Shown here piece by piece: positions 26,116-29,669 of a DNA stretch of 29,669 nucleotides. How positions within the stretch are numbered: the first letter of the stretch is position 1; each line of letters starts with the position of its first letter. The stretch covers positions 1 to 29,669 of the IMG/VR virus record IMGVR_UViG_3300009151_000267. One strand, 5' to 3'. Made by a program: the position numbers and the translations under genes. The notes beneath the pieces were generated by a model. That model saw only the letters and a list, made by a program, of their open reading frames with translations. It made no database searches and was not told the origin of the DNA. The DNA comes from a virus.

Positions 26116-26883
26116 ATGAGCAAAACCAAACCCATCAAATTTATTTTCGCTTCTGACAGCCACGGTGATATGGCCTGTGAGGAAAGTCTTGCGGCCTTGT
26201 ATGCCTACTGCTCCGACTTTCGCCCTGACCTCCGCATAGCAGGGGGAGACCATTATGATCTGCGTTCACTCCGCAAGGGTGCAATGGGTGACAGAGAAGG
26301 TGCAGAGTCACTCAAAATGGATTTAGAAATGGGACACGACTTCCTCCGCAAGTTTCGCCCGACACACCTTTTGAAAGGCAATCACGAATTCCGTTTGCAA
26401 GCGATGGCACGCAACCATCCGTCAGGGCCTGTCCGTGATTACTGCCAAGACAAGGATGATGAAATCAATTCAGTCGCTCGCAAAGCAGGATGCAAAACAA
26501 TTCTAAATTACCACGGCAAATTGGGCTTGCTCCGCATCGGGCCTTTGTCGTTCCACCACGGCATTGGTAGCAATCTGCTCAAGATGGGTAAGCACTACAC
26601 GGCAGGCGGTGTCGCTGGTGGTGCGTTTTTCTGTGGTCACGGACACACCGGGCATCAGGTCAACTTGGATCAGTTTGGTGGCGGGGCGGCTTATATGTCA
26701 CCCTGCCTCGCACGCATTGATGATTTGGAGTATGCCCAGAATTATATGGGAACGGCAAAATGGAACAACGGTTTCATTGCTGGTTGGTATATGGGCAACG
26801 ATTGGAAAGCGTGGATCATACACCGCATCGGCAAACGCTGGTTGTGGCAAACGGAATTAAAAACTTGGGAACACAAGAAATGA
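26116..26883 (+). CDS. Calcineurin-like metallophosphoesterase, 255 aa
   Basis: Two-metal phosphoesterase. The motif set is complete: DSHG (Asp14, His16), GGDHYD (Asp45, Asp48), GNHE (Asn89, His90, Glu91), SFHHG (His147 or 148) and GHGHTG (His175, His177). Similar phage enzymes act on nucleotides, cyclic nucleotides or DNA/RNA ends, so substrates cannot be chosen from sequence. An insert of about 30 residues (DREGAESLKMDLEMGHDFLR) lies between motifs 2 and 3. The start follows AAAAACTTT without SD. The stop overlaps the next ATG. Confidence 0.92.
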   Translation: MSKTKPIKFIFASDSHGDMACEESLAALYAYCSDFRPDLRIAGGDHYDLRSLRKGAMGDREGAESLKMDLEMGHDFLRKFRPTHLLKGNHEFRLQAMARNHPSGPVRDYCQDKDDEINSVARKAGCKTILNYHGKLGLLRIGPLSFHHGIGSNLLKMGKHYTAGGVAGGAFFCGHGHTGHQVNLDQFGGGAAYMSPCLARIDDLEYAQNYMGTAKWNNGFIAGWYMGNDWKAWIIHRIGKRWLWQTELKTWEHKK

Positions 26884-27137
26884 AACAGAAAAAACCAGAC
26901 CCTGTGTTGCTGGCTATAATGTCGGACATAAACAAAACCGCACAGACTCCACCCGAAGGATTCAAAACTGTTCAGCAATGGGCAGACACTTGGGGATTTA
27001 AGCGTGATCGCACACTAGACTATTTAACCAGAGGAATGAAAAATGGAACGATTGAGAAGAAAATGTTCCGTGTTGCAATTAGCCAAAGACACATCATCAC
27101 ACCACTTCCTCACTACGGATTGAAAAAGAAAACTTAA
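26880..27137 (+). CDS. Small winged-helix/HTH-like protein, 85 aa
   Basis: Central segment TVQQWADTWGFKRDRTLDYLTRGMKNGTIEKKMFRV (about 28-63) has a helix-turn-helix layout followed by a wing-like strand. The Lys-rich C-terminus ends GLKKKT. It may be a small DNA-binding regulator or origin/loader factor before the helicase. ATGA overlap with the phosphoesterase gene indicates coupling. The longer frame from 26760 is inside that gene. Regulator versus loader cannot be separated by sequence. Confidence 0.6.
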   Translation: MKQKKPDPVLLAIMSDINKTAQTPPEGFKTVQQWADTWGFKRDRTLDYLTRGMKNGTIEKKMFRVAISQRHIITPLPHYGLKKKT

Positions 27138-27153
27138 ACCAAACAACAACCCA

Positions 27154-28461
27154 ATGCCCAACCAAACCAACACCGCCTCGCCCGAAGCGGAAAGATTCCT
27201 GCTGGGAGTGTGCTTGCGAGATTCGCTTCCACTTCCAAAAGGTTTAATCCCATCGGACTTCATTGAACCGACTCACCAAGAGATTGCGGCCACAATCCTG
27301 CAACTTGCGGACGAAGGAATCTCTGCCGATGAATTGACCGTCACCGTCCGTCTCCGGGAAAACAAATCCGCAGTCGATACTTTCTACGTTTCGTCACTCA
27401 CCACGGAAACAGGTTTCTCCGCATACAATTCTGCGTGGGGTGATTCCATCAAGCGTTATTCAATCCTCCGCACCATTTCCAACATCGCACGAAAGACGGC
27501 AGAGTTGGCAAACGACCCAGCAAACGACCCAGACAGAATTCTTGCCTATTACGAAGGGAGCATCAAAGCAATTCAGGGCCGTGAAGAAAAGAAAGGTTCG
27601 TTGGTTGAATTCAAGAAAGAGGATTTGCTGGCATTCGATAGACAGAACGATCCAAACTCCGTGCTTGGCAATCGCTGGCTATGCAAAGGCGGTTCGGCAC
27701 TCTGGGTGTCGCAATCGGGAGTCGGTAAATCTTCTTTGTGTATGCAGGCGGCAATCCGGTGGTCAGTCGGAAAAGATTTCTTTGGCATCAAACCAAAGCA
27801 CCCACTACGCATCGCCATTTTGCAAAAGGAAAACGATTTCGGAGACACCGGGGAGGCCTTCTCCGATGTGTTCAATGGTCTGATGCTTCACCCACCTGAA
27901 CAACGTTTGCTGGAGGACAACTTGGCAATCTTCCGTGACACCGTTTCGTTCGGTGCAGACTTCATCGCCACGCTCCGCAATCTCATTTCCACGCACCGGG
28001 CAGATTTGGTGTTCGTTGACCCTTTGCTTGCGTTCTCCGGCATTGACGTGGCCAACCAACAGGAAGCGTCAAAGTTTTGCCGTGTCGATTTGGACGGTGT
28101 GCTTGCGGAGACAGGTTGCGTGTTGATTGCGATGCACCACACCACCAAGCCACGATCCGCAAAGGACAAGGAAGGCCAGACGGTTGCAGATATGGCCTAC
28201 GCAGGAAGTGGGGCGGCCGAATTCACAAACTATTTTCGAGAAGTCGGTGTGCTGGTTCGTCAGTCAGGGGAAGAACCTGTGTTCAAGTTTGGATTCACCA
28301 AGCGTAGGGGTCGCACCGGGATGAAGGATTTGAACGGAGATTTTGCTGGGGAAATCCTCATTCGCCACGCTCGCCAGAAGGGTTGCATACGCTGGGAATA
28401 CGCAGACCCATCCGAAGTCGGCTCACAGACACCCTCTCAATCGCTCAAAAAGGGGTCGTAA
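27154..28461 (+). CDS. Replicative helicase, DnaB/RepA-type RecA ATPase, 435 aa
   Basis: Probably unwinds DNA at the phage fork. The N-terminal part (about 8-140) has PEAERFLLGVCL and HQEIAATILQLADEG, matching the DnaB N-terminal helical domain. A linker (about 140-170) leads to the RecA core: Walker A SQSGVGKSS (186-194), a hydrophobic strand into LVFVDP (Walker B Asp289), and MHHTTKPR (327-334), the motif H region of RepA/AAA_25 ATPases. The C-terminus is Lys/Arg-rich with a Ser tail. The leader AACCAAACAACAACCCA is free of G. It is the last gene of the early block, just upstream of the structured gene-free stretch. Confidence 0.9.
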   Translation: MPNQTNTASPEAERFLLGVCLRDSLPLPKGLIPSDFIEPTHQEIAATILQLADEGISADELTVTVRLRENKSAVDTFYVSSLTTETGFSAYNSAWGDSIKRYSILRTISNIARKTAELANDPANDPDRILAYYEGSIKAIQGREEKKGSLVEFKKEDLLAFDRQNDPNSVLGNRWLCKGGSALWVSQSGVGKSSLCMQAAIRWSVGKDFFGIKPKHPLRIAILQKENDFGDTGEAFSDVFNGLMLHPPEQRLLEDNLAIFRDTVSFGADFIATLRNLISTHRADLVFVDPLLAFSGIDVANQQEASKFCRVDLDGVLAETGCVLIAMHHTTKPRSAKDKEGQTVADMAYAGSGAAEFTNYFREVGVLVRQSGEEPVFKFGFTKRRGRTGMKDLNGDFAGEILIRHARQKGCIRWEYADPSEVGSQTPSQSLKKGS

Positions 28462-28695
28462 AGGCGATTTGATTTCAAAAGGGTATCAATACACCAATAC
28501 CGCTATAATGACCCACTTTGATTTAACCAATAGGATTGCACCTGTCGGGGGTATTTCAATCCATAATCCTCCTACGGAGGATAGAACACTCCACCTGTGG
28601 TGGTGTCGTGTTCTTGGGATACAGGTTTCTGTCAGCACGATACAGGCAGGACGCTTGGTGCGTCCCTGTATCTATCCATTTAGAGATACAATCAA
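28462..28695 (+). ncRNA. Multi-hairpin gene-free stretch: candidate structured leader RNA or replication origin
   Basis: No gene is seen on either strand. In order: an inverted repeat GGTAT/ATACC (28482-28501), TATAAT (28504-28509), a GGATTG/CAATCC stem (28533-28562), ATCCTCC-TAC-GGAGGAT (28566-28582), and AGAACAC/GTGTTCT enclosing CCACC-TGT-GGTGG (28583-28614). A 13-bp stem of GATACAG/CTGTATC and GGACGC/GCGTCC follows (28639-28672, 3-nt bulge). GTATCT (28668-28673) can alternatively pair with AGATAC (28684-28689), which excludes the previous stem. GATACA occurs three times directly and once inverted. The last alternative stem ends 6 nt before ATG 28696. There is no T run, so these are not intrinsic terminators. 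This reads as a leader RNA, a trans-acting RNA or an origin next to the helicase gene. Confidence 0.55.
28504..28509 (+). promoter_or_regulatory. TATAAT -10 candidate upstream of the hairpin region
   Basis: Perfect -10 hexamer. No consensus -35 lies at 16-18 bp and no TGn precedes it. A small GGTAT/ATACC inverted repeat ends 2 nt upstream and could be an operator. If used, transcription would start near 28516 and place all downstream hairpins in the RNA. Confidence 0.4.
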
Positions 28696-29046
28696 ATGAG
28701 AATGAATAGGAATCGTCTCCAAAGAATTAAGACACTTGCCCGGTGGAAGAAACGTTGGAGAGAAGAACCTGACGTTGCCGAGAAGGATCGTGCAAAGGGA
28801 ACATTGATTGCATCACGATGCAGGGCTTGGGAAAGAAAGACGATTGGCAAGTGGATGGAGAATTGGAAAGCGGAAATGACTCCCAAAGAATACGATGACA
28901 GAATTAAATTGTTAGCGTTGAACCTGAACAAGAAACCATCCGCAGTCAGGTTGCGAATCTGGAGATGGAAGATGACACGGTTCGATGCGGCCAAGAATGT
29001 CTGGACGGTGGTTGTAGCCACAAGTGTTGATGGTGTGAACAAGTGA
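28696..29046 (+). CDS. Basic protein of unknown function, 116 aa
   Basis: Very basic N-terminal two-thirds (MRMNRNRLQRIKTLARWKKR and a dense Trp/Arg/Lys pattern such as RCRAWERKTIGKWMENWK), then KKPSAVRLRIWRWKM and a short hydrophobic VWTVVVATS. Such composition suggests nucleic-acid binding. An HTH-like turn may be present at about 70-90. A second in-frame ATG lies at 28702. It lies after the hairpin region, which is its 5' leader if transcription starts near 28516. Two small DNA-binding candidates in a row precede packaging. No family is recognised. Confidence 0.6.
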   Translation: MRMNRNRLQRIKTLARWKKRWREEPDVAEKDRAKGTLIASRCRAWERKTIGKWMENWKAEMTPKEYDDRIKLLALNLNKKPSAVRLRIWRWKMTRFDAAKNVWTVVVATSVDGVNK

Positions 29047-29061: not shown

Positions 29062-29669
29062 GTGACTGATTCGGCATCTGACCTTTCGAGAGAATACAAG
29101 CGTTGGTGGAAATCACTCCGACCAGAAGAAAAGCGTTCGTTGATTGAGTCGGGTGCGTTCCGTGCTGATGAACCGATGTCGGCAGAGTTAAGCCGGGAGC
29201 GTGTCAACGATGGTCACTTTGATTTCCAAGCGAACGAAGAAAAGTCTTTCAATCAGGAGTTGTATGGTCAGGCACGTGATGGTTCGTTCATCGGTGGCCA
29301 CGTCCGGTCAACGGTTGATGATGTGATGGAGCGTGAGTCGTTTGATGTTGCTGGTGCTGACTCACGATTGAAGCACCTTGAGTTGGCGAGCATCAGGTTG
29401 CGTGCGACACTTCACTTCTTGTTGGAAGCGTTGGATGGTTCGAGTGATGTCGAGATGAGACTGCACGCTGACATCATCCGCATTGTGGTGGGGGAGGGTA
29501 AGCCCCCGATGATGACCGTGCTTGCGAAGCGTCACAACATTAGCAAGGCGGCCGTGTCGTTGCGTTGTCGAAAGTTGTTAAGACGATTGGGTTTAGATCC
29601 GTCACACTTTATGCGACCATCCGGTGCGTGCAACACGATGTTCATCGCATCACTACTGCGTAAGGAAAA
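29062..29669 (+). CDS. HTH protein upstream of TerS, open at the right edge (202 codons here)
   Basis: Starts at GTG 29062, 15 nt after the previous stop, with no strong SD. In-frame stop TAG at 29050 limits the upstream extent. The first half is polar and mixed. Residues about 104-124 are helical (LKHLELASIRLRATLHFLLE), and MTVLAKRHNISKAAVSLRCR with RKLLRRLGL (about 151-178) looks like a helix-turn-helix of the sigma-region-4/resolvase kind. It continues past the edge, and joining to base 1 gives a basic tail ending at 94. Possible roles are a late-gene regulator, a replication/packaging switch or a second TerS-like recogniser. These are inferences from HTH and position. Confidence 0.65.
   Translation, partial: MTDSASDLSREYKRWWKSLRPEEKRSLIESGAFRADEPMSAELSRERVNDGHFDFQANEEKSFNQELYGQARDGSFIGGHVRSTVDDVMERESFDVAGADSRLKHLELASIRLRATLHFLLEALDGSSDVEMRLHADIIRIVVGEGKPPMMTVLAKRHNISKAAVSLRCRKLLRRLGLDPSHFMRPSGACNTMFIASLLRKE

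Follow-up and report, generated by a model that had tools for sequence, protein, structure and literature searches.

The origins of lambdoid phages carry O protein iterons near helicase-loading genes, and we know of no hairpins in the lambda origin model. In the plasmid pRN1, the origin is a stem-loop located just 3' of the replication gene, which encodes a protein with a helicase and a winged helix, and a similar stem-loop, kept in shape but not in its letters, has been proposed in phage BIP-1 (PMC4234260). The oriV of the IncQ plasmid RSF1010, with its ssiA and ssiB sites, combines initiator-recognised repeats and a separate helicase with short stem-loops exposed for priming, as outlined in the same source (PMC4234260). 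In phage N4, the early promoters are small DNA hairpins on the template strand of the next gene, and both a C:G closing pair and the loop bases 5'G and 3'A are required for hairpin extrusion from supercoiled DNA (PMC4496689).

The element described here lies in a 29,669-nt stretch of viral DNA (IMG/VR record IMGVR_UViG_3300009151_000267, positions 1 to 29,669; hereafter the window), between a helicase gene and the gene for a basic protein of 116 aa. As in pRN1 and BIP-1, its stem-loops stand directly 3' of a replication gene and retain their shape rather than their letters. However, the pRN1 origin is a single large stem-loop of 100 nt, lacks iterons and goes with a fused primase-polymerase, whereas the phage element consists of two or three small hairpins and 12-bp repeats and is accompanied by a DnaB-like helicase and a separate small protein predicted to contain a winged helix. 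Upstream of the element, in place of the prim-pol, SF3 helicase and winged-helix protein of the pRN1 type, we found a helicase composed of DnaB-N and AAA_25 domains. With RSF1010 the element has in common the repeats, the separate helicase and the short stem-loops, but the phage repeats are 12 bp long, the helicase profile matches DnaB structures and not RepA, and no relative of RepC or of a RepB'-type primase was found among the window proteins scanned. Since the defining proteins of both plasmids are absent, the element is a member of neither the RSF1010 nor the pRN1 type. It resembles lambdoid origins in having iterons near phage genes for helicase loading, and no O-like protein was found in the window. 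The likeness to the N4 early promoters resides in the small hairpins, the closing pair and the loop bases, given that the first hairpin of the window, P1, reads C(GTA)G on the minus strand, which is the template strand of the next gene. An earlier description of such an element was not found in the open-access text searched. On the basis of its position, its hairpins with paired changes, the 12-bp repeats of its relatives, the minus-strand loops and the turnover of the GC skew, we consider that this stretch is probably the replication origin of this lake phage and its group, composed of iterons and hairpins and functioning as DNA.

Genomic setting and hairpins of the window

The window represents a nearly complete phage genome of ~29.73 kb, which is deemed circularly permuted because contigs of the identical phage join its end to its start; two of them (L012, 5975-6034, and L017, 2524-2583) bridge the ~60 bases absent between positions 29669 and 1. 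Its genes encode terminase, portal, major head and tail proteins (the longest listed frame, of 993 aa, is tail-like). Beyond these, it codes for exonuclease VIII, a nucleotide kinase, an ERF annealing protein and a Holliday junction resolvase. The window proteins scanned include no recognisable primase or polymerase, and neither a partition ATPase nor an integrase was found among them; a comparison of the window DNA with cultured phages showed no similarity. The element separates the replication module from the packaging module, with the terminase genes downstream. Its features and those of the adjacent genes are the following.

26760-27137, plus strand: gene for a small basic protein upstream of the helicase, kept in relatives, without family match
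27154-28461, plus strand: gene for the replicative helicase, 435 aa, with a DnaB-like N-terminal domain (Pfam PF00772, 6.5e-9) and an AAA_25 ATPase domain (PF13481, 2e-18), matching DnaB structures by profile
28508-28699, plus strand: 63-codon open frame that spans the element and shares an ATGA with the start of the next gene; closed in L008, probably no gene
28544-28565, unstranded: left edge of the element (GTCGGGGGTATTTCAATCCATA), conserved in the alignment of the window clade, at the place where relatives hold 12-bp direct repeats and the window clade has no clear repeat
28566-28582, minus strand: hairpin P1, ATCCTCC-TAC-GGAGGAT, 7-bp stem and 3-nt loop; on the minus strand ATCCTCC-GTA-GGAGGAT, a C(GTA)G mini-hairpin
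28583-28614, unstranded: hairpin P2, AGAACAC/GTGTTCT around an inner CCACC/GGTGG (28591-28603); outer stem 100% paired in five sequences
28618-28625, plus strand: extra GATACAGG copy, a direct repeat and potential competitor for the 3' arm of P3; missing in L015, mismatched to the P3 arm in L007
28639-28672, unstranded: hairpin P3, GATACAG/CTGTATC plus GGACGC/GCGTCC, 13 bp with a GCA bulge (3 nt), found in the window clade; four compensatory pairs in helices 3 and 4
28684-28689, plus strand: AGATAC, an alternative pairing partner according to the preliminary description; not conserved
28696-29046, plus strand: gene for the basic 116-aa protein, directly after the element (AlphaFold2 mean pLDDT 88; no Pfam or PHROGs family)

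Of the strong packed stems reported in the preliminary description, which counted at least four, the 7-bp one (P1), the composite one (P2) and the bulged one (P3) were recovered at their places. For foldability, the element is the top-ranked 100-nt stretch of the window on either strand (rank 1 of 1479), with z scores of -2.7 (plus) and -4.3 (minus) under RNA energies and of -5.3 (plus) and -5.9 (minus) under DNA energies. Folding of the minus strand exceeds that of the plus strand in 12 of 12 genomes (GC-corrected z), and in several GC-rich relatives the element is no outlier in folding energy. Covariation, for which the preliminary description had suggested looking, is present in the five sequences of the window clade (the window, L005, L006, L007 and L015), where the 125 pair cells counted over P1, outer P2 and P3 include no non-standard pair and a single G-U, and five pairs are changed on both sides, a number that none of 500 shuffles reached. 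In P1, a T-A pair is replaced by C-G in two relatives. Since all cells are paired and five pairs have changed on both sides, the stems of the window clade are under selection; the hairpins are genuine features in excess of chance, kept up by compensatory change.

Relatives, direct repeats and minus-strand loops

Successive profile searches of IMG/VR with the helicase returned 8, 38, 363 and then more than 568 relatives, and no match was found in the species-genome collection (genome contigs). Cultured phages gave only partial helicase matches (23-29%), and in those with remote helicases, Hum25 and Pam4, the annotation after the helicase shows no such element followed by a basic gene; the group has no close cultured member. 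Synteny and hairpins were identified in 58 elements, 35 of them distinct. In the relatives with enough sequence past the helicase, a G-poor stretch comes first, direct repeats (usually two or three) follow, and P1 and P2 then lead up to the start of the basic gene; the stems are retained with entirely different letters between clades. L006, L007 and L015 have insertions of small genes that part the element from the helicase, and the element and the basic gene stay joined. These inserts (L006, 6405-7131; L007, 6136-6606; L015, 3995-4867), to which no function is assigned, differ among the three close relatives, in which an insertion hot spot adjoins the putative origin.

The direct repeats of the relatives, two or three in number, are 12 bp long, lie upstream of P1 and are in phase. 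The mean best self-match at lag 12 was 9.6 versus 4.1 in dinucleotide shuffles (z = 26), with no other lag above z = 5, and lag 12 was again prominent (z = 20) in ten distinct elements fetched later. The window clade has the hairpins and no clear 12-bp repeat. GATACA, for which the preliminary description had proposed the role of iteron, was rejected since it is not common to the family as a repeat: copies exist, but partial conservation is limited to the ones in P3 and at 28618, and the repeats of the family are other 12-bp units. As in the window, the interval from P2 to the basic gene contains GATACA-like words (GATACAAC, GATACAGGGATACA, AAAATACA) in distant clades, just before the gene start (L008, L088, L096, L108 and L111). 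L054 harbors, besides the repeats before P1, a second 12-bp repeat array (ACATACA...) at 242-290 of the gap after the helicase, beside the start of the basic gene.

Loops of 3-5 nt on perfect stems of at least 4 bp were counted in the 35 distinct elements. Thirteen are T-N-C or T-N-N-C loops closed by C-G, corresponding to C(GNA)G or C(GNNA)G on the minus strand (0.76 in shuffles, none on the opposite strand), and ten are C(TAAA)G loops, corresponding to C(TTTA)G on the minus strand (0.04 expected, one in the opposite orientation). Overall, 23 mini-hairpin loops were found where about 0.8 were expected, with one oppositely oriented, whereas such loops show no strand bias across the same genomes (59 versus 50). 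One of these loop types occurs in seven of the ten elements of the later set; the P1 loops of L030, L065 and L108 follow neither the GNA nor the TTTA rule. The middle letters of the loops vary and the end letters are fixed, which fits the requirement of a sheared G-A pair on the minus strand: the P1 loop interchanges among TTC, TAC and TCC in sister phages (alignment C), and the P2 apex changes from CGCTTACGC to CGCTACGC in L104. TTTA is a favourable loop in DNA. DNA mini-hairpins with GNA loops are known for their exceptional stability (Yoshizawa 1997 and Hirao 1994, as cited in PMC6479982).

These data bear on the proposal, made in the preliminary description, of a two-state riboregulator. 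If the element were a structured leader on the mRNA of the basic gene, the basic protein or a signal would switch translation via the hairpins, a role with which both the persistence of the element just before that gene in spite of the small genes inserted in L006, L007 and L015 and the compensatory changes in its stems agree. However, the competing fold, in which AGATAC at 28684-28689 takes part, is intact in the window only, its central pair being broken in four of the five sequences with no compensation. Far-diverged RNA would be expected to hold many G-U pairs, which are nearly absent here; the stems in 13 clade alignments comprise 1018 Watson-Crick, 8 G-T and 5 A-C cells, counts that support DNA and are not decisive given that the stem finder favours Watson-Crick pairs. 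The loop rule suits the minus strand as DNA, and an Rfam search gave no match in the window, the stretch or seven relatives. The TATAAT regarded as a promoter is part of TATAATGACC, together with the ATG at 28508, and is not conserved, since it corresponds to CAGAATGACC (CAGAAT) in L005, the nearest relative at 95%; a search for sigma-70-like sites found none. As a leader would, in addition, leave the 12-bp repeats and the GC-skew minimum unexplained, we regard it as unlikely. Instead, the nearly pure Watson-Crick stems, the minus-strand loop rule and the stronger folding of the minus strand indicate that the element acts as DNA, not as RNA.

Less probable still is that it serves solely as a single-strand promoter or priming site, of the N4 early promoter or plasmid ssi type, and not as the main origin. 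The loop chemistry and the template-strand orientation are indeed those of the N4 promoter hairpins, but the genome encodes no giant virion RNA polymerase, as judged from its longest listed frame, and the stem letters, which a promoter would need conserved, vary freely. Furthermore, unlike the N4 promoters, the element features repeats and a second hairpin, and its position and skew suggest replication; a promoter would account for neither the repeats nor the skew turnover.

GC skew and the proposed origin

The GC-skew analysis that the preliminary description had suggested for an origin was carried out on 16 genomes, and in 15 of them the detrended cumulative minimum, i.e., a compositional strand switch, lies at most 1,030 bp from the element; in the remaining one, G006, it is 2.8 kb off. 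In 11 of the first 12 genomes, the minimum falls within 920 bp of the helicase end, and in the four genomes added as a test it falls at -257, +99, +58 and +84 bp from the element centre. The combined p value according to Fisher is about 2e-8 for 12 less related genomes and is optimistic, as these are still related. The skew turns over at the element despite nearly all genes pointing in one direction, and most near-complete genomes have its maximum at a roughly opposite position, a pattern expected of a single origin with two forks. At four-fold degenerate sites, the skew rises across the element in only 9 of 12 genomes, and the purine-excess skew is less consistent than the GC skew; the skew could partly reflect gene content, the element being a module border. 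The origin next to the helicase envisaged in the preliminary description is thus upheld by the skew minima, the 12-bp repeats of the relatives and the mini-hairpin loops, though not with GATACA as its iterons.

Partition systems, too, commonly use short tandem repeats together with a small DNA-binding protein, and with the terminase genes downstream the hairpins might be imagined as a centromere, a pac/cos or a recombination site, with the repeats bound by the small basic protein. We consider a partition, packaging or recombination site improbable to a slightly greater degree than a promoter, since neither a partition ATPase nor an integrase is among the window proteins scanned, the identical contigs read straight across the site and the skew minimum favours an origin. 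Least probable of all is a short gene for a 63-aa product, coupled to the basic one: the stretch, presented as gene-free in the preliminary description, does contain this frame, open in the window clade and with its ATGA overlap, but amino-acid-altering changes dominate between the window and L005 and track base pairing rather than codons, and in L008 the frame is stopped six codons before the next gene, so that it was rejected as an unlikely gene.

According to the origin reading, a phage protein, most likely the neighbouring basic protein, would bind the repeat region, and upon supercoiling or melting the minus strand would snap into mini-hairpins, which would serve to mark the loading site of the phage helicase or to keep it open. 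The host primase would lay the first primers at the hairpin site, and forks would then depart both ways. Host priming enzymes are assumed here because of the lack of a recognisable primase or polymerase among the window proteins scanned.

The gene for the basic protein follows the element in the relatives long enough to show it. The AlphaFold2 model of the 116-aa protein displays long basic helices and a C-terminal winged helix. Searches of Pfam and PHROGs assigned it to no family and a profile search of the PDB returned no credible match, whereas a fold search of the PDB gave weak winged-helix-like matches only (best E 0.25) and the viral fold library yielded three uncharacterised phage proteins. 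Judging from the model, this protein is possibly an initiator, an origin-binding protein or a helicase loader, and the small basic protein encoded at 26760-27137 is a second possible DNA-binding partner in replication.

More tentatively, hundreds of uncultured freshwater phages may share an undescribed class of replicator, in which 12-bp iterons are followed by one-strand mini-hairpins (C(GNA)G, C(GNNA)G or C(TTTA)G), a new family of winged-helix initiators loads a DnaB-like helicase, and the shape of the hairpins, not their sequence, is the signal. Origins of uncultured phages are almost never located, while in this group, which counts 363 to more than 568 relatives in one collection, the putative origin can be read from anatomy alone. 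The strand-specific loop rule predicts that the loops function in single-stranded form on one of the DNA strands, and would join the biophysics of stable DNA mini-hairpins to the start of replication, with a family of small proteins named as candidate initiators.

Two further variations were observed in P1. In L059, L063, L065, L096, L102, L061, L095 and L043, the stem has, at a distance of a few pairs from the loop, either an unpaired A (or AG) on the plus-strand 3' arm or a mismatch of A with A, which may be a protein contact. In L108, L111, L144 and L154 and in L068, L077, L091 and L106, a long conserved loop (AAATACAAGATGCA or AAAGAATACA) replaces the mini-loop.
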